Assembly (NCBI RefSeq): GCF_000025605.1
Contig: NC_013894.1
Coordinates: 171,529 to 235,528 of the forward strand
Direction: 5' to 3'
Length of the DNA stretch: 64,000 nucleotides
From: Thermocrinis albus DSM 14484
GTDB lineage: Bacteria > Aquificota > Aquificia > Aquificales > Aquificaceae
Under the pieces are notes generated by a model. It was not told the origin of the DNA. It saw nothing but the letters and a program-made list of their open reading frames with translations, and did no database searches. Of this stretch, positions 3-53,211 are shown piece by piece. Numbering within the stretch: the stretch's first letter is position 1; each line of letters opens with the position of its first letter. Position numbers and translations under genes: made by a program.

Positions 3-1349
3 CAGGGGGGTGTGGCCTGTGCTTTCCATCCCAAGGACAGCACCTACCTTCACTTTATGGATACTGTAAAGGCGGGTCGTGGTCTCTGCCACCACCAGGC
101 GGTTACGACTATGGTGGAGGAAGGCGTCCAGCGTATCGGTGACCTGATAAGGTGGGGTGTGACCTTTGATGCCGAGACCACCACCGAAGGGGGACATTCT
201 TTCCCTCGTGTTCTTAAAGTAAAGGATTACACAGGAAGAGCCATATACCAAGTTCTTTGGAAAAAGGTTCAGGAGTTGGGTATAAGAGTTCTCAGGGGTG
301 AGCTGGTGGAGATACTGGGGGATGACAAAGTGGAGGGTGTACTGTACGTAGAGGATGGTAGCATCCGTTTCTTGAGAGTAAAGGCGGTGGTACTGGCCAC
401 AGGCGGTGCTGCCTCCCTTTACCTTCACACATCCAACCCTTCACCTACCCGTGGTGACGCCATCGGTATAGCCATCCGAAAAGGTATCCCTCTGGTAAAT
501 CCTGAGTTTGTCCAGTTTCATCCCACGGTACTTGACGGAACCAGCTTCCTGATATCGGAGGCGGTAAGAGGTGAAGGAGCCACTCTGATAGATGAAAGGG
601 GTGAGAGATTCGTGGATGAGCTCCTCCCCAGAGACCAGGTAGCCAGAGCTATATACAGAAAGCTGAAGGAAGGCCATCGTGTCTTCTTGGACATGAGACC
701 CATCGTGGGTAAAGGTGTCAACATAGAGGAACGTTTCCCCACTATAGTTTCATACCTGAGGGAGAAAGGTATAGACCCATTGAAGGACCCAATACCTGTG
801 GTTCCGGCAGCTCACTACTACATAGGAGGTTTGGAAGTAGATCTGTGGGGGCGAACAAGGCTACCCGGGCTATACGCTGTTGGAGAGGTGGCATGTACAG
901 GTGTTCACGGAGCTAACCGCCTTGCTTCTAACTCTCTCCTGGAGGGTTTAGTTTTTGGATTCCGTGTGGCCCACAGAGTACTACATGACCTTAGCACCCT
1001 AACCTTTTCTTCCTCTTCCTTCAGGAACATGCATGAAGGAAAGGAAGAACCCCCCTTTACCCTCACCCATCTGAAAGAACTCATGTGGGAGTACTGTGGA
1101 TTAGAGAGGGATGAGGAGGGACTAAAACACGCCATAGGGATACTGACCGAGTGGTTGCACAGTTGGAAAAGCTGGAGAAGAACACCGGAGAACAGGGCTC
1201 TTTTGGATATATCTCTGACAGCATTAGGAACACTGCAGGGAGCTTTAAACAGAAGGGAGAGTAGGGGTGTCCACTTCAGGAAAGATTATCCTTACCAAGA
1301 TGACCGATACAGAAAGGACACATTGATAAGCGTGGGACTAAATTGGTAA
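3..1349 (+). CDS. nadB: L-aspartate oxidase, 5'-truncated by window edge
   Basis: Oxidises L-aspartate to iminoaspartate, the first step of de novo NAD synthesis, in the cytoplasm. The frame is open from base 3 and begins with QGGVACAF, the conserved segment that follows the FAD-binding fold in NadB, so the N-terminal FAD-binding motif lies outside the window. Visible family signatures are the covering-domain stretch GHSFPRVL, the substrate region VQFHPT, the SEAVRGEGA motif, the [10 protein letters not shown] active-site segment and the C-terminal flavin segment [13 protein letters not shown]. The end is complete and overlaps the possible TTG start of uvrC. Succinate dehydrogenase/fumarate reductase flavoproteins are related, but GGLEVD and the C-terminal helical domain favour NadB. 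The true start cannot be seen. Confidence 0.93.
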
Positions 1350-1351
1350 GT

Positions 1352-3049
1352 ATGATAGATCTTGAAACCCTCAAAAGAGCTCCCGAAAGTTGCGGTGTTT
1401 ATCTTTTTCAAAGAAAGGGAAGACCTATATACATAGGAAAGGCAAAGAACATAAAGGAAAGACTGTTACAGCACTACAGGGCATCTACCTCAGATCCCAG
1501 AGAGAAAGCCATACTGGAGCAAGCCGACAGTGTGGACTGGTTTATCACCCGTAACGAGTTTGAAGCTCTAACTTTAGAGATAGACCTCATTCAAACTCAT
1601 AAACCCAAATACAACATACTTCACAAGTACGGTGCAGGTTATCCCATGCTCCTCATCACCGAGGATCCTTTTCCCACCCTTCGCGTTGTGAGAGGTGCCC
1701 ATCACAGAGGCAAACTCTTCGGTCCTTTCTTTACAGCCAGTAAGGCCTACAAAGTTAAAAGATTGGTGCACAGTCTTTTTAAACTACGCACATGTGATCC
1801 TATGCCTATCAGGAAGGAACCTTGCATGGATTATCATCTGGGCCTCTGCAGTGGTCCGTGCTGCGGAAAGATAGATAGGGAGGATTATCTACTGTCGGTT
1901 ATGTCTGCGGAGTCTATGCTTTCGGGAGAAGTGGGAGAAGTGTTACCCTTGCTCTACCAGCGCATAGACCAGCTTATGGTGAACATGGAGTTTGAGAAGT
2001 GTGCCGTCATAAGGGATCAGATACAGGCTTTAGAGCGTTTAGGACAAGGGCAAAAGGTAAGTCCATTACCTTACGCCAGTGCAGATGTCTTCTACAGAAT
2101 GGGTAACGTGGTGGGAATATTTCTTATCCGTTCCCATAAGTTGGTGGACAAACAGATACACACTTTGGAGAGTGAGAGCCAACTGGAAGAGATGCTGGCA
2201 GGTTTCTACTACGCCAACGTGCTGCCTCAGGTACTGCTGGTGAATTTTCCCATCAGTGAGGAACTAATACAGTGGTTACAGAAAAGGGGAGCCTGCAAGA
2301 TACTTCCATTAGAAGATCCTGAGCTGGAAAAACTCCTGAGGGAGAACGTAGGTGCTGCCGTACCCTACCAGGTCCTAAGGGAGGAGTTTCTCAAAACCCT
2401 ATCTGTACCTTTACCGGAGGTGATAGAAGGGTTTGATGTCTCCCATTTTTACGGGGAGTATGTGGTAGGATCTTGTGTGGTTTGGGAAAAAGGCTTCATG
2501 AACAAAAAGCGTTACAGGAGATACAGGATAAAGAGCTTTGAAGGTATAAACGACTATATGGCACTGGAAGAGATACTATCCAGAAGGGCGAGGCGCCTGA
2601 AAGAGGGAGAGGAAAAAATGCCCGACATATGGCTCATAGATGGAGGAGTAGGGCAGCTGAACGTAGGAATAAGGGTGAGGGATAGATGGGATCTACCCAT
2701 TAAAGTCATGGCTCTCGCCAAAGAGGAGGAACTCCTCATAACGGAGGATGGTAGGAAGATCCCCCTCAAAGAGAACCCACTCCTCTACAAGGTGTTTGGT
2801 CTTATAAGGGACGAAGCACACCGCTTTGCCCTATCCTACAACCGACAGCTGAGACTCAAAAACGCCCTCACCGACATACTGGACAAAGTGAAAGGTATAG
2901 GAGAGGTAAAGAAGCGCATCATCTACAGGAACTTTGACAACCTTTATGAGTTTCTTCAGGCAGACCCTAACTATCTGAAGCAGTTAGGTATAGACCCTTC
3001 CCTAAAACAGGAGGTAGAAAAGTACCTTGCAGGTGATAAAGGGAGTTAA
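1352..3049 (+). CDS. uvrC: UvrABC excinuclease subunit C
   Basis: Makes both incisions around bulky DNA lesions in nucleotide excision repair. The N-terminal GIY-YIG nuclease is clear (GVYLF at residues 15-19, PIYIGKAKN at 25-33), followed by a UVR-type helical hairpin around residues 205-230, a C-terminal RNase H-like endonuclease (GFDVSHFYGEYVVGS, WLIDGGVGQLN) and a helix-hairpin-helix end (VKGIGEVKKRI). At 565 residues it is slightly shorter than E. coli UvrC. The ATG at 1352 is preferred because MIDLETLKRAP fits the family N-terminus; an in-frame TTG lies at 1343 and overlaps the nadB stop. It is tightly packed with nadB and the next gene, so probably cotranscribed. Confidence 0.95.
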   Translation: MIDLETLKRAPESCGVYLFQRKGRPIYIGKAKNIKERLLQHYRASTSDPREKAILEQADSVDWFITRNEFEALTLEIDLIQTHKPKYNILHKYGAGYPMLLITEDPFPTLRVVRGAHHRGKLFGPFFTASKAYKVKRLVHSLFKLRTCDPMPIRKEPCMDYHLGLCSGPCCGKIDREDYLLSVMSAESMLSGEVGEVLPLLYQRIDQLMVNMEFEKCAVIRDQIQALERLGQGQKVSPLPYASADVFYRMGNVVGIFLIRSHKLVDKQIHTLESESQLEEMLAGFYYANVLPQVLLVNFPISEELIQWLQKRGACKILPLEDPELEKLLRENVGAAVPYQVLREEFLKTLSVPLPEVIEGFDVSHFYGEYVVGSCVVWEKGFMNKKRYRRYRIKSFEGINDYMALEEILSRRARRLKEGEEKMPDIWLIDGGVGQLNVGIRVRDRWDLPIKVMALAKEEELLITEDGRKIPLKENPLLYKVFGLIRDEAHRFALSYNRQLRLKNALTDILDKVKGIGEVKKRIIYRNFDNLYEFLQADPNYLKQLGIDPSLKQEVEKYLAGDKGS

Positions 3050-42084: not shown

Positions 42085-42908
42085 AGTCGGAACCCCCTCT
42101 TAAGAAGATTTAAAATCCGCCTTTTATCCATCAGGATAGAAGGCTGCGCGGTAAAGGCTTTAAACACAAAGGCCCAACCCCTCTTAAAGTCTCCAAAACG
42201 CAGACACACGTCACCCACATGAAAGGTAAAAGCCGGCACATACTGTACAGGTATTCTACCCACATAATCCTCGTAGATCTTGAGGGTAACTGTGTATAGC
42301 TTTATGTTCTTATAACTGTTTCTGTGAGGATGATCCCTTATCATAACGGTGTCTGTGTCCACTATCTTTATTTTCAAACCGTTTACAGCACTTCTGAGGA
42401 GTAATTCCCAGTCCTCTCTATGTAGGTATTCGTTTCTATAACCCAGAAAGGCATTTCTTCTGAAGGCACAGGCAGAAGGGTAGCCCACCTCTCCACCAAA
42501 GAGGAGAAGAAGGGGATCTTTGGGTATTTTTTTATGGGATCTTCTTATAACCCTCCCCTCACCATCCACAAAGGTGCGCGGCACAGAGTAAAGCACCTGC
42601 GCATCTTCCAACAGGGACAGCATACGAATCACGTGGTCTTTGTCCCAAAGATCATCGTGATCCAGAAAGAATATAACATCACCGGAACTTATCTCCACAC
42701 CTAGGTTGCGAGATAAACACCTCTCCTGTCGGTACTGGTTTCTGTAATACACCACAGGGTAAGAACTCACTATCTTGGATGTGTTATCGGTGGAGGCATC
42801 ATCCACCACAACCACCTCCACGGGATAAGTTTGAGCCAGAGCGGACTCAATGGCTCTGGCCACAAAGTTTTCACCGTTATAAACGGGAATAACTACAGAT
42901 ACCTTCAC
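42063..42908 (-). CDS. Family 2 glycosyltransferase
   Basis: A soluble GT-A fold transferase using a nucleotide sugar. The N-terminal VSVVIPVYNGENFVARAIESA and VVVDDASTDNT are the nucleotide-binding part, and FFLDHDDLWDKDHV carries the metal-binding DxD. The protein ends at residue 281 without membrane helices. Substrates cannot be inferred. It overlaps DHQ synthase II at its start (ATGA) and hpt at its end. Confidence 0.88.
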   Translation of the reverse strand: MKVSVVIPVYNGENFVARAIESALAQTYPVEVVVVDDASTDNTSKIVSSYPVVYYRNQYRQERCLSRNLGVEISSGDVIFFLDHDDLWDKDHVIRMLSLLEDAQVLYSVPRTFVDGEGRVIRRSHKKIPKDPLLLLFGGEVGYPSACAFRRNAFLGYRNEYLHREDWELLLRSAVNGLKIKIVDTDTVMIRDHPHRNSYKNIKLYTVTLKIYEDYVGRIPVQYVPAFTFHVGDVCLRFGDFKRGWAFVFKAFTAQPSILMDKRRILNLLKRGFRLWRRLPV

Positions 42909-43900
42909 TTCTCTAAGATGGTCTCCTCCACCTTCATACCGAAGTGTCTGCCGGCTTCTTCCACATAACCTAAAACCTCGTCTCCTTCCTTGAGTTCCAC
43001 CACCGACACAGGATTACCATCAGGTTTGACCAATCTTATAGTTTCTGCGTTTTGGAGAATAGCACTCACCTTTTTACCGTTTACCTTACCCTCCACCAGA
43101 AGCATGGGTCTTCTCTCCACCTTAGCCCTTCCCACGTAAACGACCCTTCCCTTACCTGTGTGGTCATATACCATAACCTCATCTCCCGCTTTAAGCTCAC
43201 ACAGGTAGCGCGTTCTGTTTTCCGGAACTCTTATGTACATATGAACGGCACCTGCGTTCACACGGAAAGGTCTTGACGCCACGTAAGGGTTCTCTTCTGT
43301 CTCGGCATGTACCAAAAACATACCCCCCGAAGAGTTACCCACCAACATGCCCTCTCCCCTCTTCAGGAGAGACGTGGTGTCTACGCACACCCTGTCTCCC
43401 AGTCCGAGGGGTAGCACCCTGGTTATGCGCACCTTCACCAGAGGTATGGTTTCCTCTTCCTCTTCCAAAACTCTGGCCACTTTTCTCACCAGATCTGGAT
43501 CCGAGGTTCTCAAGACCACACCCTTGACCCCCTTTTCCAGAATCTTGATGGCTGTCTTGGCCTGCTCTTCGTTTCTCACAACGGCGTAAAGCTCCTCCCT
43601 TTGGGCTATAAGGTTCTCAAGGGGTATAATGGTCCAGTCGGTGGTCTCCACCACCACCTTAACATGAGGCGCGAACTTGGCGGCACGCTCCTCATCCTCT
43701 TTTCCCTTTATGAGAACATACACGTAGTCCTCACCTTCTTTGAGATCACCTTCCGGACCTGCCACCAGGATCCTACTGAGTTTTTTGACCTCTTTCACAT
43801 CCTCTGGTTTTGAAAGCACCAAAACTTTGGCACCGGCTTCTATAGCCGCGGTTACCACATTTTTGTCGGGCACATCTGGCCAAACCCACAGTTCCTTCAT
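42905..43900 (-). CDS. 3-dehydroquinate synthase II (archaeal-type)
   Basis: Makes 3-dehydroquinate by the archaeal-type route, from 2-amino-3,7-dideoxy-D-threo-hept-6-ulosonate with NAD, instead of the DAHP/AroB route. The family marks are MKELWVWPD at the start, KGVVLRTSDPD, LGLGDRVCVDTTSLLKRGEGMLVGNSSGGMFLVHAET and FRVNAGAVHMYI. The 331-residue length fits. Its presence means the shikimate pathway here probably begins with ADTH synthase; that gene is not in the window. Confidence 0.9.
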   Translation of the reverse strand: MKELWVWPDVPDKNVVTAAIEAGAKVLVLSKPEDVKEVKKLSRILVAGPEGDLKEGEDYVYVLIKGKEDEERAAKFAPHVKVVVETTDWTIIPLENLIAQREELYAVVRNEEQAKTAIKILEKGVKGVVLRTSDPDLVRKVARVLEEEEETIPLVKVRITRVLPLGLGDRVCVDTTSLLKRGEGMLVGNSSGGMFLVHAETEENPYVASRPFRVNAGAVHMYIRVPENRTRYLCELKAGDEVMVYDHTGKGRVVYVGRAKVERRPMLLVEGKVNGKKVSAILQNAETIRLVKPDGNPVSVVELKEGDEVLGYVEEAGRHFGMKVEETILEK

Positions 43901-43906
43901 AGAGTT

Positions 43907-45079
43907 TTAGTATACCACCAGCTGGTGTGGTACAGGAGGTAGTCTCTTCAGCTTAGCTTCGATAATCTTCTGGGAATACTGTTGGAGGTAGTAGGCTATA
44001 GTCTCCACCCTTATCCTCACACTTCCCGAAGGTTTTGTCTCGTCAAGCTCACCAAACTTGAAGAACATAGTTCCCGAACTTTCCACAATACGCTGAACGG
44101 GGGTGAAGGTAGGTTGGTCCATGCCGCACTCGTAGGAGGAGAGCCTTATCACGGCGGTTATCCAGGGAAGTCTACTACCGAACTTGGCACCCCATATGAT
44201 CTCGTTGGTATTAGAACTGTACGAAGAAGTCCACACATCGGAGATGTCAAGGGGATGTCTTATTCTTCCTTCTTCCACATCTTTTCCAAAGAGCCAGTTC
44301 AAAAGCCAATCCTCCAGCGGTAGGTAGTTGTACCATAACACCGGATATCCCAGTAGCTGAAATTCTGCATCTATCTCATGGCCTATACCCGGATCCATGT
44401 GGTACGGTCTTGCTAAGATCAGAACGGCGGGCCTGTTGTTGGTGGTGCACCATCTTATAATTTTCAAGGAAAGCTCTCTGGCCTTTCTGTCAAACTCCCT
44501 AAGGGCTTTGAAGCCTTCCTCAACGGCCAGCTTAACTTCCTCCATCGTTATATCCTCAATTGCAGAACGTAGGGCTCGGTAAAGATACAGGGGCAGAAGT
44601 TCTGGCTCACCGAAGGGGACGAAGGGAGATACGTACCTTATTCCTCTCTTTGCAAACTCATCACCCTCCCGTAGAAAGCCTGCCTTTATGTTCTCAGGTG
44701 CCATCATCACCCTCGTACAGGACAAGGTGTCCTGAACATAACCCTTTAGGAAGGAGGGAAGGGAGTATATCATGGGGACCACCAGTAAGTTTATGTCCTT
44801 ATGAAGTAACTCTCCTATATGTCCGGCAAGGGCTTTTACCGGATAACAGCTGTCCATCGTTACTCTACCTTTACCGTAGGTTCTGTACTGCTCCTCCGAA
44901 GTCTCCGAGCTGAAGACCACCTTACCCACTCCAAGACTCTGGAAAAAGGCTGTCCAGAAAGGTGCTGTTCCCCACACGTTCAGGAACCTGGGTATACCTA
45001 CCTTAACCCACTCCCTGCTTTTCCTTTCTGTACCTGAAGGCCTCCTTTTTAACAAAGTGAGCGACGTTAGGAAACTCAT
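43907..45079 (-). CDS. DUF2229-type dehydratase-activation protein (split activase module)
   Basis: Matches the DUF2229 module that follows two BadF/BadG ATPase domains in the giant single-chain activase/dehydratase proteins: KVGIPRFLNVWGTAPFWTAFF, then MDSCYPVKALAGHIGELL with a conserved Cys, VVPMIYSLPSF, and VLILARPYHMDPGIGHEIDAEF. The role is probably as a scaffold or iron-sulfur component of a 2-hydroxyacyl-CoA dehydratase-like system; no substrate is known. The start is problematic: the module begins at KVGIPRF (near 45004), right at the stop of the preceding gene in the +1 frame, but the nearest start codons are TTG 45055 and ATG 45079, inside the upstream gene. Internal initiation or frameshifting are both possible. 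Confidence 0.78.
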   Translation of the reverse strand: MSFLTSLTLLKRRPSGTERKSREWVKVGIPRFLNVWGTAPFWTAFFQSLGVGKVVFSSETSEEQYRTYGKGRVTMDSCYPVKALAGHIGELLHKDINLLVVPMIYSLPSFLKGYVQDTLSCTRVMMAPENIKAGFLREGDEFAKRGIRYVSPFVPFGEPELLPLYLYRALRSAIEDITMEEVKLAVEEGFKALREFDRKARELSLKIIRWCTTNNRPAVLILARPYHMDPGIGHEIDAEFQLLGYPVLWYNYLPLEDWLLNWLFGKDVEEGRIRHPLDISDVWTSSYSSNTNEIIWGAKFGSRLPWITAVIRLSSYECGMDQPTFTPVQRIVESSGTMFFKFGELDETKPSGSVRIRVETIAYYLQQYSQKIIEAKLKRLPPVPHQLVVY

Positions 45080-47162
45080 TCTGCACCCTCCTCAATCTCT
45101 CTTTTATAACGGCCAGCTCTCTTTCATCCTCCACCAGTCCTTTGGGACATGCGTTACCCACAATTAACCTTATCCATCCTTTTTCGAGAGGTACCTGACT
45201 CCATTCTCTTCCCTCGCCATAACCTACATCTACGTCTATGAAGGTTCTCTGACAATGGATGGGACACCACCTGCAGACGGTACGTGAGTCAGTGGTGGCC
45301 CTGTAGTTGAGTTTCTCTAGAAGGGGGAAGCCACGAAAGTTGCTTTTGTTACCTCTACGGTAATACTCCAGTGCCAGAAGGGCTACACCCAGCGCACCCG
45401 CCTCTCCAGGGAAGGGATGCAGGTACACCTCAGCGTCTGGGACACGGGACGTTATAAAATCCACCTGCGCCTTCACCACCGCCAGATTACGGTGAGTGCC
45501 ACCCTGAAGTATAAACTTTCTGCCCACCTGAGCCAGATTGTTGATGTTTCCCGCATACACCCAAACGTTGAGGGGTAGAACGGCACACAGACCCGCCAGT
45601 ATTTCCTCCGCTTTCCAGCCTTTTCTCTGTTGGTTTACTATGTCGCTCTGAAGGAAAACTCCACATCCCATACTGAAGGATGGTACAGCCTTCGCAGAAA
45701 AAGCCCTATCTGCTACCTCTTCCAGAGGTATCTGGAACCTTTCGGCCACACCCTGCAGGAAAGCCCCGTTTCCTGAAGAACACTGGGAGTTTAACCTGAA
45801 GTCTACAACGGAGCCGTTACGCAGTATCAGGATCTTAACATCCACACCACCCACATCGCATATACAATCAGCATCGGGGAAAAAGTGCAGCCCTGCGGTA
45901 GCATGCGCCACAGTCTCAACCACCGTTACATCAGCACCCAGCACACTTCCCATCAGGTCCTTGCCGTATCCTGTGACACCTAATGCCAGCACTTGAACAT
46001 CGCCCATAAAGGCACGTATCTGACCGAAGATGGAGCGAGCATCCTCTATGGGGTTACCCTTGCTAAGGGTGTAGCAGGTGTAAACTACCTGACCCTCTTC
46101 AGAAAGGCACACAGCCTTAGCACTGGTGGAACCAAAGTCACATCCCACCACTATCTTGTCAACCTTTTTAGGTGTAACACGAGAGAAGCTGCTGCTGTAC
46201 TTCTTAAGAAAACTCTCTAACTCCTTGGGAGACCTCACGAGCCCACCTTTACCTTCCTTCAACTTCTGCTGGTACTGACCTTCCTCCACCCACCAACGGA
46301 GTTTTTCTGTACCCTGATAAACACCTCCTTCCTCTTCCATGGCGGTCAGAACACATCCAAGGGAGGCGTAATACAGAGAGTTTTCGGGAACTACCACCAG
46401 CTCTTCCATCTCCTGATCGCTGAAGTCTCCTACACCTCTCTCTTTCCAAAGTCTCTGTAAATGTACCATCCAAGCCTCCCTCAGGCCTCTGAAGAAGAGA
46501 TTAGGGCCCCCCAACAGCAACACCTTAGGATAAGGTGTGTTACCTTTTGTAAGCTGCGTAAGGTTTTGGTAAACTACAGCGTCAAAGAGGGAAGCCATAA
46601 CTTCTTCTACCGGCACACCCGCCTTTATGAGGGTGTTCACATCTGCCTCTGCAAAGATACCACACTTGGAACTCACCCTGTGAATACTGTAACCTTTGTA
46701 TCCCATATACATAAGTTTCTCAGGGGGAATACCCAGTTTTCTCGCCGTTTTCTCTATAAAGGTACCTGTCCCTCCTGCGCAGGCGTTCTGCATAACCACC
46801 TGTTTCGTCCTTCTTCCGTCTATTTCCCTTATGAAAACCGCCTTCATATCCTCACCACCTATCTCGCTGACGAACCTAACATCAGGATGGAGCTTCTCCA
46901 CCGCTGTAGAAACCGCCACAACTTCCTGCAGAAACCTGCCCCCCACCAAGGTGTGTATGAAACTCGCCCCAGAGCCTGTAAAATAGACCCTGTCCTTACC
47001 AGGACTGAGATGGTATTTCTCTTCCAACCTAATTAAGAACTCCAAAACCTTCTCTGCAGTGTGAGTGTTATGGCGTTCGTAAGCTTTATCCAAGATGTTA
47101 CCGTTGTCGTCCACGAGGACATACTTACATGTGGTACTTCCCACATCTATACCCACTATCAT
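45003..47162 (-). CDS. Tandem BadF/BadG-type acyl-CoA dehydratase activase (ASKHA ATPase)
   Basis: Predicted ATP-driven electron injector. Two ASKHA ATPase domains are fused: the first (residues 1-280) begins IVGIDVGSTTCKYVL with cluster ligands C128 in QNACAGGTGTF and C167 in SSKCGIFAE; the second (residues 335-590) begins VVGCDFGSTSAKAVC, with C461 in NSQCSSGNGAF and C500 in FSMGCGVF. Thus the cluster-binding cysteines occur in both halves. The C-terminus (CRWCPIHCQRTF and CPKGL, residues ~635-680) is Cys-rich and may hold another metal centre. In fermenting bacteria such activators reduce 2-hydroxyacyl-CoA dehydratases, benzoyl-CoA reductase or double-cubane-cluster proteins. It overlaps the previous gene by ATGA and the next by frame-shifted overlap. 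Confidence 0.85.
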   Translation of the reverse strand: MIVGIDVGSTTCKYVLVDDNGNILDKAYERHNTHTAEKVLEFLIRLEEKYHLSPGKDRVYFTGSGASFIHTLVGGRFLQEVVAVSTAVEKLHPDVRFVSEIGGEDMKAVFIREIDGRRTKQVVMQNACAGGTGTFIEKTARKLGIPPEKLMYMGYKGYSIHRVSSKCGIFAEADVNTLIKAGVPVEEVMASLFDAVVYQNLTQLTKGNTPYPKVLLLGGPNLFFRGLREAWMVHLQRLWKERGVGDFSDQEMEELVVVPENSLYYASLGCVLTAMEEEGGVYQGTEKLRWWVEEGQYQQKLKEGKGGLVRSPKELESFLKKYSSSFSRVTPKKVDKIVVGCDFGSTSAKAVCLSEEGQVVYTCYTLSKGNPIEDARSIFGQIRAFMGDVQVLALGVTGYGKDLMGSVLGADVTVVETVAHATAGLHFFPDADCICDVGGVDVKILILRNGSVVDFRLNSQCSSGNGAFLQGVAERFQIPLEEVADRAFSAKAVPSFSMGCGVFLQSDIVNQQRKGWKAEEILAGLCAVLPLNVWVYAGNINNLAQVGRKFILQGGTHRNLAVVKAQVDFITSRVPDAEVYLHPFPGEAGALGVALLALEYYRRGNKSNFRGFPLLEKLNYRATTDSRTVCRWCPIHCQRTFIDVDVGYGEGREWSQVPLEKGWIRLIVGNACPKGLVEDERELAVIKERLRRVQNEFPNVAHFVKKEAFRYRKEKQGVG

Positions 47163-48670
47163 CTTCTACCCCTCATAAGTTGTGCCACGTGATACACGTA
47201 ATTGGCAGCTGTCCCAACAAAACCGTAACGAGGTACGTGATAGGTGGCTCTCCTTATATGAGGGTTATCCTCCTCAAATTCCCTGATCCTCTCCAAGGTA
47301 AGACCAGTCATCTCCAACACTTGGTAAAACTCCTCCTTAGCTCTTTTCTTAGCCTCCGTGAGCACCATCTGACAACGGGAGAGAGCGTGGACCTCTGCGT
47401 CACCTTTTACCTCTATGGGTGCATAGAGCAGGTGAGGATAATCAGCCAAAACCTTTGCCATGGCACCCACCGACATAGTGTTGGGCAAACATCCGTAAGG
47501 TGACAGTTCGCATATCATATGAGCCTGTTTGTGTTTTAGAGCGTACAGAGCCTTACCTATCAGCATGTGTCCTTCACCACCTGTGAGGCGGTAATGAAAG
47601 TAAGGTTCCGCCAAACGGCGCAGCTCTCTCTGGGAAGGCAGAGGGTTTGGAATGTTTCCAAGAGCCTTTCGGAGTCTGTCGTAAGTTCTTCTATAAAGAT
47701 AGGCCACCAAAGTTGCCACCGTCTTCTTGAGGAAATAACCCTTCACGAAGGGTTTCGCATCCTCTAGCTTAAAGATCTCCATATGAATCAGATAATCCAT
47801 CCACACGGCTACAGGCGGAGGTATGACCTCAGCCCCCTCCCTCTCCAACCATCTTTTTATATTGTAGTTACCTTCACCTTCGTGGGTCTGAAGCCAGAAC
47901 TCTCCCGTTATCTTCACCTTTGGTTTGGGTTGGAGTCTGTCCACCTCCACCTCGTCCCAAAGCTTCTTAACCTCTTTCAAAGCCTTTGTAAAGTAATCGG
48001 TAAACAGATGCCACAGAAGATTTCCCCACTTTTTACCCCTCAAAGGTCTGTTTTTGAGGGCCTCGTAGAGGATTTGGATGCTCTCCTCCACCACCTTATC
48101 GGTCTTTCCCTGCTCCTTTTCGTAAGGTCTCGTGCTGTACTCCATATCGGTTATGAGATCTCCCAAGAACATACCCATGAAGAGTCCCAGCGTCAGGGGC
48201 GTGTTTATCTCCAGACCACCCCCTTCCACCGCCTGCTCCATACGCATAAGATCCAACAGGTACATTCTGAACTCTCTCAGATTAAGTCCCTCAAGGACCC
48301 TCTCGTAGGATTCATGATACTGCCCGAACCTGCAGGGCCCACAAGCACCTACAGTGACAAAAACGTAGTTCTCCTTCACCCCATCTTCCCCTTCTTCTTT
48401 CTTAAGAGTTTCCAGAGTTCTTGCCAAGTTACCCGCTGTAAAAGTGGTGGGGCAGCACGCACCTACATCTACAAATTCCTTACCTATATCCAAATCCTTC
48501 CTCTCTATCTGAGGTAACGGCTTAGCTCTATAGCCCATATTCTCAAGAGCTCCCTGCAGTAATCTCTCGTGCTTCCAGGTAAGACCTCCGTACAGAAGGG
48601 TAACCTTGGATCTCTCCTCCTTCCTGAAAGGCCTTGGTCTGTATGCCAGATAATCCTGCTGTCCTCTCAT
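47159..48670 (-). CDS. 2-hydroxyacyl-CoA dehydratase-like iron-sulfur component (split from giant activase)
   Basis: 503-residue cytosolic protein resembling the C-terminal module of giant activase/dehydratase proteins. The key elements are VGACCPTTFTAGNL (C72, C73), VGACGPCRFGQYHESYE (C110, C113), and CELSPYGCLPNT (about C391 and C398), which look like iron-sulfur ligands. It lies first in the operon, followed by the tandem activase and the DUF2229 protein, so the order is permuted relative to the fused homologues. The ATG at 48670 has the purine-rich GGGGGAGAG upstream and a promoter with an FNR/CRP-type palindrome at 48726-48739. The substrate is unknown; no CoA-transferase or other dehydratase subunit is nearby. 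Confidence 0.78.
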   Translation of the reverse strand: MRGQQDYLAYRPRPFRKEERSKVTLLYGGLTWKHERLLQGALENMGYRAKPLPQIERKDLDIGKEFVDVGACCPTTFTAGNLARTLETLKKEEGEDGVKENYVFVTVGACGPCRFGQYHESYERVLEGLNLREFRMYLLDLMRMEQAVEGGGLEINTPLTLGLFMGMFLGDLITDMEYSTRPYEKEQGKTDKVVEESIQILYEALKNRPLRGKKWGNLLWHLFTDYFTKALKEVKKLWDEVEVDRLQPKPKVKITGEFWLQTHEGEGNYNIKRWLEREGAEVIPPPVAVWMDYLIHMEIFKLEDAKPFVKGYFLKKTVATLVAYLYRRTYDRLRKALGNIPNPLPSQRELRRLAEPYFHYRLTGGEGHMLIGKALYALKHKQAHMICELSPYGCLPNTMSVGAMAKVLADYPHLLYAPIEVKGDAEVHALSRCQMVLTEAKKRAKEEFYQVLEMTGLTLERIREFEEDNPHIRRATYHVPRYGFVGTAANYVYHVAQLMRGRR

Positions 48671-48697
48671 GACTCTCCCCCTGACGTTTTTACCATA

Positions 48698-48739
48698 AAT
48701 TTACCGGGTGTTGGAGGGATGTAAGATGATTTTAATCAT
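48698..48739 (-). promoter_or_regulatory. Class II FNR/CRP-type promoter of the dehydratase/activase operon
   Basis: ATGAT-TTTA-ATCAT (48726-48739) matches the FNR/CRP-family half-site pattern TGAT-N4-ATCA. The -10 box TAAATT (48703-48698) predicts a start at about 48691, putting the palindrome centre at exactly -41.5, the class II activator position. There is no good -35 box, as expected for activator-dependent promoters. The palindrome overlaps the last codons of the small ORF after feoB. Confidence 0.6.
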
Positions 48740-48813
48740 TCACAGCAACGTCTCCTTTTAAAGAGGAAAACCAGAATCAGTAGGGCTGTCACAGAGATAA
48801 CAAGATACTCCAT
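48736..48813 (-). CDS. Tiny membrane protein after feoB, FeoB-associated Cys-rich type
   Basis: A 25-residue ORF starting inside the 3' end of feoB. It has one hydrophobic helix (residues 3-17), then a basic Arg-rich stop-transfer (FKRRR) and a terminal CCE. This is the layout of FeoB-associated Cys-rich membrane proteins, though shorter than usual (40-60 residues). It begins with ATG, has AGGA about 10 nt upstream, and overlaps feoB by 25 nt. It could be chance; the class assignment is inference. Confidence 0.4.
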   Translation of the reverse strand: MEYLVISVTALLILVFLFKRRRCCE

Positions 48814-50720
48814 AGCCTGTAGATTCCTACACCCGCCATCCAAGCAATCAAAAAGCTGTACGCCAGAAAGAGGAGGGCAAATCTACCTCCTGCTTCTCTT
48901 TTCAACACAGAAAAGGTTCCCAAACAGGACATATAGAGGAGCATAAACACCATAAAGGCCAAAGCCGTGGGAGGATCCATCACACGGGACACCGCTTGTC
49001 TCAGTGGAGAGTGTTCCTCCTTCACTTCAAAGACTTTGGGGACAGGACTCAGGAGGTTTCTCCCGGCCTCTTTAAAGGCGCTCAACAGTGCCACTCCTTG
49101 TTCCTCAAGAGCTTTCCATGGGTCTTCTAACTCTCTACTTTCTTCTTCCACCGCGTATATGGTGGCCATGGAACCTAACACCACCTCTCTTGCCATAAAA
49201 GCTGGGATGAGAGAGGTGGTTATCCTCCAGTCGTGTATTCCCATAGGTTCAAAGATGGGCAGCAGCACCTTTCCTATGTGAGCGGCCACACTGTCCTCCA
49301 CCTTACTGACTCCTACCGGTAAGTGTAAGAGGGACCACACCACCACCGCCACCGCCAAGATGAGGGTTCCAGCCCTGTAAAGGAAGTCTTTAACGTGTAC
49401 CCATGTGATGCGTAAAAGGAGCTTGAGGGTAGGAAGCCGGTAAGGTGGTAACTCCATAACAAAATGGGTCAAACTTCCCGTGTAAACCAGTTTCTTTAAG
49501 ACAAAACCCGTTACAATAGCTGTCATCACGCCCATCAGATAGAGACCTAGCATAACGAGGACGGGAGATGGAAAGAAGAGGGTTGCAAAAAAGGAGAAAA
49601 CCACCAAGCGTGCAGGACAACTCATGAAAGGTATCATGGCCAGTACCAACATCTTATCTCTTTTGGTATCAAGAGTACGAGTAGCTAAAACAGCAGGCAC
49701 GTTACATCCAAAACCCAGAAGAAGAGGTATCACACCTTTACCGTGAAGACCTATTCTGTGCATAAAACGATCGGTGAGAAAAGCTACCCTTGGTATGTAA
49801 CCGGAAAACTCAAGAAAGGACAGAAGAAAGAACAGAGATGCTATGAGGGGAACAAAGGTTAGTACAAAACCAACTCCACCCACCACAGCTTCCGATAGGA
49901 AACTTCCCCAAAAGCCATTCCCCACATACCTTTTCACCAACGGTCCCAGAAAGTTTTGGAAGAAACCGTCCAGCCAATCCATAAAGGGTGAAGAAACGTC
50001 AAAGGCCACCTTAAAGAGAAGAAACATAACAAAAACAAAGAACACGGGTCCCATTACAGGGTGTAACACTATCCTGTCAAGGGCTTCCGTGATGTCCTGT
50101 GATACGGTAGACCTTCTCTTCACCACTTCCGTGTAGAGGCCGTGGGCAAAACCCAACCTTCTGTCTCTCAGTTCCTGATCCTGGAGAGGAGTTCTCAGGT
50201 AAGGCAATGGGAAGGGGCGGAGGTCACTTTCTATAGCTCTCACTACAGCCTCCAGAAGATCCTTTACACCCTCACCTTTTCTACCGTTGGTCTTCACTAC
50301 AGGTAAGCCTAACAGCTCCTGCATTCTGGAAGTATCTATATCTATACCCAATCTCAGTGCCTCATCCCACATGTTGAGGGCTATCACCATCGGTTTCCCC
50401 AACTCCATGAGTTGTGCCGTTAAGAAGAGATCCCTTTCCATATTGGGTGCTTCTATGACGTTTATGATGAGATCCACTTTCTCCTCTTTCAGGAAATGGT
50501 AGGCTATCTGCTCGTCTTCCGAAACAGGTTCCAAAGTGTATATACCCGGTAGATCTACAAAGGTTATCTCATAATCACCGTAAAAGATCTTTCCCTCCCT
50601 TTTCTCTACCGTGACACCTGGCCAGTTACCCACCCGTAAGGTGGTCCCGGCGATATGGTTGAGAAGACTGGTCTTACCTACGTTAGGGTTGCCCACCAGG
50701 GCAACCAAAACTTTCTTCAT
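48789..50720 (-). CDS. feoB: Ferrous iron transporter FeoB
   Basis: GTP-dependent Fe2+ uptake across the inner membrane. The N-terminal G domain has GNPNVGKT (residues 10-17), DLPGIYTLEPVSEDE and NMWD, followed by the helical spacer and about eight to ten membrane helices with the Gate motifs (GFGCNVPAVLATRT and the SCPARLV segment). At 643 residues it is compact compared with E. coli (773). It is coupled to feoA by a 4-nt overlap. A tiny Cys-containing ORF at its end may be the third Feo component. Confidence 0.96.
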   Translation of the reverse strand: MKKVLVALVGNPNVGKTSLLNHIAGTTLRVGNWPGVTVEKREGKIFYGDYEITFVDLPGIYTLEPVSEDEQIAYHFLKEEKVDLIINVIEAPNMERDLFLTAQLMELGKPMVIALNMWDEALRLGIDIDTSRMQELLGLPVVKTNGRKGEGVKDLLEAVVRAIESDLRPFPLPYLRTPLQDQELRDRRLGFAHGLYTEVVKRRSTVSQDITEALDRIVLHPVMGPVFFVFVMFLLFKVAFDVSSPFMDWLDGFFQNFLGPLVKRYVGNGFWGSFLSEAVVGGVGFVLTFVPLIASLFFLLSFLEFSGYIPRVAFLTDRFMHRIGLHGKGVIPLLLGFGCNVPAVLATRTLDTKRDKMLVLAMIPFMSCPARLVVFSFFATLFFPSPVLVMLGLYLMGVMTAIVTGFVLKKLVYTGSLTHFVMELPPYRLPTLKLLLRITWVHVKDFLYRAGTLILAVAVVVWSLLHLPVGVSKVEDSVAAHIGKVLLPIFEPMGIHDWRITTSLIPAFMAREVVLGSMATIYAVEEESRELEDPWKALEEQGVALLSAFKEAGRNLLSPVPKVFEVKEEHSPLRQAVSRVMDPPTALAFMVFMLLYMSCLGTFSVLKREAGGRFALLFLAYSFLIAWMAGVGIYRLWSILLSL

Positions 50721-50929: not shown

Positions 50930-50949
50930 CCTTGCCTCCTGTGGATATT

Positions 50950-50977
50950 AATATACAATCTCAAGATAATCTGTCAA
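50950..50977 (-). promoter_or_regulatory. feoAB promoter
   Basis: TTGACA (50977-50972), 16-nt spacer, TATATT (50955-50950), then a short leader with AGGAGG before feoA. It is the best -35 match in the window. A Fur-type site is expected from biology but I cannot see an unambiguous one. Confidence 0.68.
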
Positions 50978-51030
50978 GGGGTGACCTAAGTCATAATGGG
51001 AAGCTCTTTGGACTCATAAAATTTAAAGGC

Positions 51031-53211
51031 ATGTGGCGTGTGGTATTTACGGGAGAGAGGCCCCACTACGAGAACGTCGCCCTAGACAGGATAATGTTGG
51101 ATCTGAGAGGAGAGGGAAAGATACCCAACACTATAAGGTTCCTCAAGTTCAAGCCTGAATGTGTGCTGATAGGTTTTCATCAAGCTGTGGAGCAAGAGGT
51201 GAGATTGGAGTATGTGGAGAGAGAAGGTATACAGGTAGGAAGGAGGATAACGGGAGGAGGAGCCATTTACTTTGACGAAACCCAGATAGGGTGGGAGATC
51301 ATAGCAGACAGAGAAAGTGTGGGAGGCGGAAACTTTGAAGAGATAACAGCAAAGATATGCAGAGGTATAGCTAGAGGGCTCCGAAAGCTGGGTATACCCG
51401 CCCAGTTTAGGCCGCGTAACGACATAGAGGTGGATGGTAGGAAGATTTCCGGAACAGGTGGTGTCTTTGAAGGTAACGCCTTTCTTTATCAGGGAACCCT
51501 TCTCATGGACTTCAACGTGGAAAGGATGCTCAAATCTCTCCAGATACCTGTGGAGAAACTCACCTCTAAAGGAATAAAGGCCGCCGAGGACAGGGTAGAG
51601 TGGGTAAAAAGATACCTGGGATATCTGCCCTCTGACGAGAAGATTTTCTCCGCCTTGTTGGAGGGACTTAAGGAGGAACTGGGCATAGAGTATAACTGGG
51701 GACATCTCACGCCGGAAGAGGAAAGTCTTTTGGAGAAGAACAAGGAGTACTACAGGAGTGAAGACTGGGTTTTTCACATAAGGAGAGCTCCCCACCAGAT
51801 GCAGAGCCTTTACGGTATCTACAGGTGTCCCGGTGGTACCTTCCGTGTGTCGGTGCGCGTTGATCTAGAGAGAAACATCTTACAGCAGGTGAACATAAAC
51901 GGAGACTTTTTCGTAAATCCCAGAAGACTGGTCTACGATTTGGAAGCGTACCTCAAGCACACTCCCCTTCAGGATGTGAAGACTAAGGTGGAGGAGTTCT
52001 TCAGCCAACGTCAGTGGGAGGGTCTTAACCTGACGGTGAACGACTTTGTGGAAGCTATTCTGTTTCCCATCAGAAAGGCTGAGGGACTGCAGCTGGGAAT
52101 AGATAAAAAAAAACTTAACAACATAATAGCCAGCATAGGAGATGGCCTTATAGAGAACCTCCGTAAAGCAAAGGTGATGCTCCTCCCTTACTGTGCAAAA
52201 CCCCGCTGGTGTGATTACCGACATCTAGATGACTGCGGTGAGTGTGGAGGATGCACGGTAGGAGACGCTTATAGGTTAGCCTACCAGAAGGGTATGATAC
52301 CTATTACTATAACTTCCTTTGAACTGTTACGGGACACACTTCTATGGTGCGCCAGAAACGGATACACCTACATAGGTCACTGTTGTTACGAGTTTTTCGA
52401 AAAACGGTACGAGATATTCCAAAGGGCGGCACAGGAAGGAGCCAAGGGGGTTCTGTTGGATATTGTGGGTACCACTTGTTACAGTTTAGGAGTAGAGGAA
52501 GAGGAAAAAGCTTATCACGGTGAGTTCACTGTGGAGTTAGACCTCCTTAAAGAAGAGCTGTACAAAACGTTAAAGGTAAAGGAAGATGTGTGGGAGAAAC
52601 CCAAGAGACAGAGCAGAACCTTCGATTTTTCCCCATACTTCCGTGACTTTGTTCCTACCTATTACAAGAAACCTAAGGCTGTGCCATCACCTGAGGAAGA
52701 CAGAACGAGAACAGCTGTTCAAGAAGAGGTCTTTCTCGGCGAAGCTACCATAGAAGACAGAATAGTTAGCTCTTCTGAAGCCCTGGCTACCCTTGCCGAC
52801 TGGATAAAGAGAGCAGAGAGACCAACCCTTGTGGTTGGTCCCCTTTTGGTGTGGGATTGGGGAGAGGAAGAACTACGACAGAAGGCTGAGGCTCTGCGTA
52901 CACTGATAGAGAAGATACCCCACCTTAAGGTAAAGGTGCTGCCCGATTACAGACCCAAGTTGGGTAAGTACGACCCATCGGTGGAGATGGATCCGCCCAA
53001 CCCTCATCAATGCGTGCTTCACGACAGAAACGATCTTACACTGCTGGTGGGTGTTCACTGTTACCGTACCGACTTTGTTATAAGGCTACTGAGAAAACAC
53101 ACACCCACCCGTGTTGTTACCCTCTGTGGACTTTACGGACATCCAACCGCTCACCTCTCGGTGAGCTTCACTGACGCAGAAAAGCTGTATTATCTTTCTC
53201 GACTACTCTGA
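51031..53211 (+). CDS. Lipoate-protein ligase fused to DUF116 and a CODH-epsilon-like domain
   Basis: Three domains in 726 residues. Residues 1-240 form a lipoate ligase: MWRVVFTGERPHYENVALD, RRITGGGA at 71-78 and GRKISGTGG at 137-144. Residues 245-315 form a LplA-C-type accessory domain. Residues 380-500 form a DUF116 Cys-rich domain (C388, C394, C402, C405, C408, C451, C452, C483), probably binding iron-sulfur. Residues 595-726 resemble the epsilon/beta accessory subunit of CO dehydrogenase. The start at 51031 matches the ligase N-terminus; the frame is open to 50932. Its substrate may be a glycine-cleavage H protein or a lipoate-binding protein of the sulfur-oxidising sHdr system; this is inference. 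Its 3' end overlaps the convergent GT39 gene. Confidence 0.85.
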   Translation: MWRVVFTGERPHYENVALDRIMLDLRGEGKIPNTIRFLKFKPECVLIGFHQAVEQEVRLEYVEREGIQVGRRITGGGAIYFDETQIGWEIIADRESVGGGNFEEITAKICRGIARGLRKLGIPAQFRPRNDIEVDGRKISGTGGVFEGNAFLYQGTLLMDFNVERMLKSLQIPVEKLTSKGIKAAEDRVEWVKRYLGYLPSDEKIFSALLEGLKEELGIEYNWGHLTPEEESLLEKNKEYYRSEDWVFHIRRAPHQMQSLYGIYRCPGGTFRVSVRVDLERNILQQVNINGDFFVNPRRLVYDLEAYLKHTPLQDVKTKVEEFFSQRQWEGLNLTVNDFVEAILFPIRKAEGLQLGIDKKKLNNIIASIGDGLIENLRKAKVMLLPYCAKPRWCDYRHLDDCGECGGCTVGDAYRLAYQKGMIPITITSFELLRDTLLWCARNGYTYIGHCCYEFFEKRYEIFQRAAQEGAKGVLLDIVGTTCYSLGVEEEEKAYHGEFTVELDLLKEELYKTLKVKEDVWEKPKRQSRTFDFSPYFRDFVPTYYKKPKAVPSPEEDRTRTAVQEEVFLGEATIEDRIVSSSEALATLADWIKRAERPTLVVGPLLVWDWGEEELRQKAEALRTLIEKIPHLKVKVLPDYRPKLGKYDPSVEMDPPNPHQCVLHDRNDLTLLVGVHCYRTDFVIRLLRKHTPTRVVTLCGLYGHPTAHLSVSFTDAEKLYYLSRLL

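Follow-up and report, generated by a model that had tools for sequence, protein, structure and literature searches.

What turns on the activase operon of Thermocrinis albus DSM 14484? The question arises from a 64-kb stretch of the genome (the window), in which a sequence-only reading had placed an FNR/CRP-type palindrome at exactly -41.5 of this operon and had proposed an FNR- or CRP-type regulator as its switch. To our knowledge, little is known about how microaerophilic, deep-branching hydrogen oxidisers adjust their respiration to oxygen, and searches of the open-access literature turned up no account of a CRP/FNR regulon from the Aquificaceae.

The operon lies on the minus strand. Its first gene (47159..48670, the last base of the start ATG being 48668) encodes a 503-residue protein that has no Pfam or NCBIfam match and whose profile matched no solved structure up to an E value of 1; seven cysteines are invariant in an alignment of eight orthologues. 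On the same strand follow a 719-residue double activase (45003..47162), with two BcrAD_BadFG / acyl-CoA dehydratase activase stretches, and a 390-residue protein (43907..45079) with a DUF2229 (CoA enzyme activase) domain. A gene for 3-dehydroquinate synthase II (42905..43900, minus strand) begins 6 nt downstream of the gene for the 390-residue protein and is possibly carried on the same transcript. The upstream gene, feoB (48789..50720), is also on the minus strand. Beyond it, on the plus strand, a single 759-residue ORF (50932-53211) joins a lipoate-ligase domain, a DUF116 stretch and a CO-dehydrogenase epsilon-like domain.

The palindrome and its promoter context

Re-reading of the sequence confirmed a perfect 6-2-6 inverted repeat at 48726..48739 (ATGATT-TT-AATCAT, ATGATTTTAATCAT on the forward strand; ATGATTAAAATCAT on the coding, minus strand), within the 118-nt gap between the feoB stop and the activase operon. 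The minus-strand -10-like hexamer TAAATT (48703-48698), a four-of-six match to TATAAT, is likewise present and spaced as the sequence-only reading had described, 22 nt past the 14-mer and 23 nt past its TGA-N6-TCA core (48727-48738). A ribosome-binding-site-like sequence, AGGGGGAGA, is found at 48674..48682 on the same strand. The description of the promoter as having no good -35 box was nearly right: a weak minus-strand -35-like CTTACA (48720..48725, four of six matches, 16-bp spacer) does exist, although it is not conserved in relatives.

A class II arrangement was defined here as one in which an operator with its centre near -41.5 takes over the role of the -35 box. With the palindrome centred at 48732.5 and +1 at 48691 (minus strand) the arithmetic behind the -41.5 position is correct; its exactness is only conditional, because 48691 is itself derived from the -10 hexamer alone, and the value is a good prediction, not a measurement. 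If the -10 is correct, the 23-nt gap corresponds to a centre at -41.5, and the gaps of 22 to 25 nt seen across orthologues to predicted centres of -40.5 to -43.5. For comparison, an FNR class II site is described at -42 (PMC5934665), and a FixK box at -44.5 in a promoter where only the -10 resembles the consensus and no good -35 is present (PMC3050613).

By itself the palindrome is unremarkable and weak as evidence. The window contains 14 perfect inverted repeats of the 6-2-6 type and 84 of the 5-4-5 type, and the FNR consensus searched with two mismatches gave 22 matches there against 25.7 expected, which is no better than chance. Such counts would suit a chance inverted repeat without function. 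At the same time, no other place in the 1.5-Mb genome (1,500,577 bp) matches ATGATTNNAATCAT exactly. The significance of the site comes from its conservation and not from the palindrome itself.

Conservation of the site before orthologous operons

The 503-residue protein had matches in 24 of the 61 genomes. In a first set of 15 close orthologues, 12, all from the Aquificaceae genera g1, g7 and g11, carried TGA-N6-NCA at -68 to -71 from the start codon, followed by a TANNNT hexamer 22-24 nt later. The layout rule was fixed in advance from these 15 and then applied to eight newly fetched g7 and g11 orthologues, of which all eight had the motif and six the full layout. By chance the full layout would pass at rates of 0.0003 (shuffled upstream regions) and 0.0005 (random anchors), and the motif alone at 0.004 and 0.009, respectively. 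In all 20 orthologues examined from the three genera TGA-N6-NCA begins 67-71 nt before the start codon (L075 was tested from a GTG start), and the TANNNT hexamer lies 22-24 nt past it in 18 and 25 nt past it in two (L074 and L077); as the sequences are related, the 20 do not represent 20 independent events. This count leaves aside one g11 match (G083), which is partial, and those g6 matches for which there was no locus. In g7 and g11 the proximal half-site is degenerate and reads GCA, CCA or ACA. The genes upstream differ between genomes, so that the site goes with the operon. The search for the same palindrome in relatives, which had been named as a check, came out positively in three genera. 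A chance repeat is highly improbable against a position kept in 20 of 20 orthologues and a held-out set that largely passed.

In a fourth genus, g6, it was found in none of the 10 orthologues examined (3 + 7), and at the three g6 loci viewed more closely the 503-residue gene directly follows another ORF. Orthologues outside the Aquificaceae (at least 58% identity, 110 nt upstream) were rejected as carriers, TGA-N6-NCA being present in 0 of 22; L116, without upstream sequence, falls outside the 22, and for four of the 22 the anchor is approximate because the aligned start is not an ATG. Orthologues of the 503-residue protein (L105-L132) occur at about 58-65% identity in Acidobacteriota and scattered other phyla, which suggests that the gene has been transferred.

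A quite different reading is that the operon is transcribed from an ordinary sigma-70 promoter, with the palindrome serving for repression or only for modulation. In three relatives from g1, the genus of T. albus (G001, G003 and G006), the motif is closely followed by a good sigma-70 promoter of the form TTGACC-N17-TATAAA, which would put the operator centre at about -46.5, and the window has CTTACA-N16-TAAATT. Set against this, no conserved -35 was found in g7, g11, G002 or the window, and the distance between site and -10 stays within 22-25 nt, which is what class II activation would require. A COX3 site positioned as for a repressor (see below) also speaks for the sigma-70 reading, which we regard as unlikely. 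The activase promoter is probably a class II target of a CRP/FNR-family regulator, though not demonstrably of FNR or CRP themselves.

A wider family of sites at energy genes

Searches with ATGATNNNNATCAT (ATGAT-N4-ATCAT) in five relatives gave 37 matches against 2 for the reversed control. Of these, 26 are intergenic; among the other 11, scored as 'in-gene', one or more (COX3 in G016, L294) result from a start-codon miscall. Neighbouring genes include COX3, POR/CO_dh-like, isocitrate dehydrogenase, AhpC, cytochrome c, COX1-like, NIR_SIR and molybdopterin oxidoreductase, as well as CRISPR-like repeats, mobile-element-like genes and hypothetical genes. In three genomes a DUF2249-type ORF shares one palindrome with a divergent neighbour, which is a cytochrome c in L300 and L214 and a DnaJ-like protein in L217; the DUF2249 assignment was Pfam-tested in L300 only (965-1450, minus strand), and the ORFs in L214 and L217 are similar.

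In the T. albus genome the looser ATGAN6TCAT is mildly enriched (45 matches against 31 for the control); 34 of the 45 lie in genes and 11 between genes, and those in genes and the two of the 11 that fall in CRISPR arrays were discounted. The full ATGAT-N4-ATCAT occurs seven times, five of them intergenic and outside CRISPR arrays, namely at the activase operon, on the nuoB side of metK, at the [NiFe] hydrogenase/antiporter genes, at COX3 and at a TnpB-like gene. Coding sequence makes up 97.26% of the genome of strain HI 11/12T according to its description (PMC3035279), and with 2.7% non-coding DNA five of seven intergenic sites have a p of about 3e-7. Further sites precede Fe-SOD (ATGATATATCTCAT) and POR/CO_dh (one mismatch). 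This enrichment of the family at energy genes also speaks against a chance repeat at the activase operon. The TnpB-like gene has a perfect palindrome 18 nt upstream (G000:C1:330766-330779; L005:1501-1514). At L176:1501-1542 one perfect palindrome separates the gene of a [NiFe]-hydrogenase small subunit from an Mrp/Nuo antiporter-like gene that runs the other way, and in either direction a -10-like box follows it at class II distance.

Plotting TANNNT hexamers on 50 gene-ward sides, the activase side included, gave peaks at gaps of 23 and 24 nt (8 each, mean 2.1 per gap). Of the 13 T. albus entries with the class II pattern, however, only five, at three places, are both intergenic and clear of CRISPR arrays. 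The SOD promoter was surveyed in 30 of the 55 SOD-bearing genomes: TGA-N6-TCA with a downstream -10-like box is present in 13/13 g11 and 5/5 g7 genomes and in T. albus itself, which is the exception among six g1 genomes, the other five missing the site. TGA-N6-NCA is found at both g4 loci, and the SOD loci examined from g2, g6 and g10 (1, 1 and 2) have no site. The hydrogenase promoter was dropped as an example of a fixed-spacing footprint, the position of its site differing between genomes.

Other layouts also occur. At the cytochrome c promoters of G016 and G029, which have TTGACA-N17 and a -10, the site is centred at -60.5, near where a class I activator binds. The COX3 site (T. albus and G029) is about 32 nt from the ATG with no class II -10, and the isocitrate dehydrogenase site is too near its gene for class II; both would fit repression, and some members of the family may therefore act as repressor sites.

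A candidate regulator

A PF13545 search of the T. albus genome found two genes, L001 (E 1e-18) and L002 (E 8e-4, below the HTH_Crp_2 cut-off). L001, of 239 residues and encoded near G000:C1:1288291, is the genome's single full-length CRP/FNR-family protein, with HTH_Crp_2 (4e-18) and cNMP_binding (2e-14) domains that place it in the superfamily. Its AlphaFold model (pLDDT 85.5) has GlxR/CRP structures as best Foldseek matches, and a profile search of solved structures gave DNR as the best match. Across the order, 58 of the 61 genomes searched have a PF13545 protein above the cut-off. No CRP-like ORF was found beside the activase operon in 80 loci (phmmer with L001), and a regulator gene adjoining the operon was rejected on that ground.

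The recognition helix TTVETxIR is present in all 42 aligned L001-type sequences (L001 and 41 orthologues); invariant columns were taken from an 18-row subset. The main DNA contacts of FNR are Glu209, Ser212 and Arg213 (PMC4505428); L001 keeps the Glu209 and Arg213 positions and has Ile at that of Ser212. By a published rule (PMC1274295), Arg180 pairs with G3 and Glu181 with A6, and the Val and Glu of L001 at these positions fit sites without G3 and with A6.

The protein on this operator could instead be L002, a divergent 189-residue protein adjoining nifK, or some regulator that does not belong to the PF13545 family. A cNMP-binding-type domain is present in L002, its helix, YEHVVR, keeps the Glu and Arg, and short family members of about 187-213 residues with weak scores are found elsewhere. 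The 99% complete genome G002, however, keeps the site and has the L001 orthologue as its only PF13545 protein detected at E <= 0.001, and L002 itself scores below the cut-off. We give this alternative a minor share of the probability and favour L001.

Could the regulator be a true FNR, an oxygen-labile [4Fe-4S] protein that turns the operon on at low oxygen? The target genes, of respiration and oxygen defence, and the FNR-like recognition helix would suit it. L001 and its site share with the E. coli FNR system (PMC4505428) a CRP-like fold, the predicted class II geometry, the Glu209/Arg213 positions and a TGAT-N4-ATCA core. Unlike FNR, with its four cysteines, L001 and each of its 41 orthologues have one cysteine only (residue 140 in L001), and L001 lacks the N-terminal cysteine cluster and the Ser212 equivalent. 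The outer base of the site is A instead of T, and the canonical FNR box TTGATNNNNATCAA occurs 0 times in the T. albus genome (6 against 1 for the control over six genomes). The FNR consensus was accordingly rejected as the motif, its looser matches in the window being at chance level, and a true FNR is extremely improbable.

CRP and GlxR-type cAMP receptors share with the L001 system the fold, the cNMP_binding domain and the TGA-N6-TCA core. They differ in that L001 has Val at the Arg180 position, and no Arg-Ser motif of the kind that binds phosphate in cAMP receptors was seen in L001. CRP boxes (TGTGAN6TCACA), a form that the activase site does not have, are without clear enrichment, with 3 against 1 for the control in T. 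albus and 6 against 4 over six genomes. DNR and HcpR are, like L001, without the FNR cysteines, and DNR/HcpR/FixK sites (TTGAT-N4-ATCAA, TTGA-N6-TCAA) resemble the operator found here (PMC1274295, PMC3050613). The present operator differs in starting with A and not T, and its putative targets are broad energy and redox genes. Of the claim that an FNR/CRP-type regulator switches the operon on, what survives is the superfamily geometry and the class II spacing to the -10, and the narrow identity as FNR or CRP is unsupported.

Model and implications

What the computation provides is the site with its near-fixed spacing, an enriched intergenic family of similar palindromes at energy genes, of which many show class II spacing, and a candidate regulator that is conserved; from these we infer that L001 binds the site and that binding activates. 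We consider it likely, on these sequence grounds, that a class II activator of the CRP/FNR superfamily in the Aquificaceae, most likely L001, has its operator at the activase palindrome. In this model a dimer of the activator would sit on the palindrome about 41.5 bp upstream of the start, replace the missing -35 contact and recruit RNA polymerase to the activase operon, and L001 would also control respiratory and redox genes. The target genes make redox or oxygen status a plausible signal.

More tentatively, and with the odds rather against it as a whole, the Aquificota may have a new type of CRP/FNR-superfamily protein as their one order-wide master regulator. It would be without an Fe-S cluster or cAMP signature; its single invariant cysteine, Cys140, placed by the L001 model in a long helix (residues 132-157), the dimerisation helix, would be a possible thiol redox switch, and it would have its own operator, ATGAT-N4-ATCAT. 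If this is true, such a regulator would coordinate oxygen defence with hydrogen oxidation, the oxygen-reducing chain and the ferredoxin-dependent enzymes of carbon fixation, and would bring in the activase that serves a putative low-potential iron-sulfur enzyme as well. With an operator predicted and one clear candidate for the regulator, the whole regulon can be tested, and the poorly understood activase operon would become linked to redox control.
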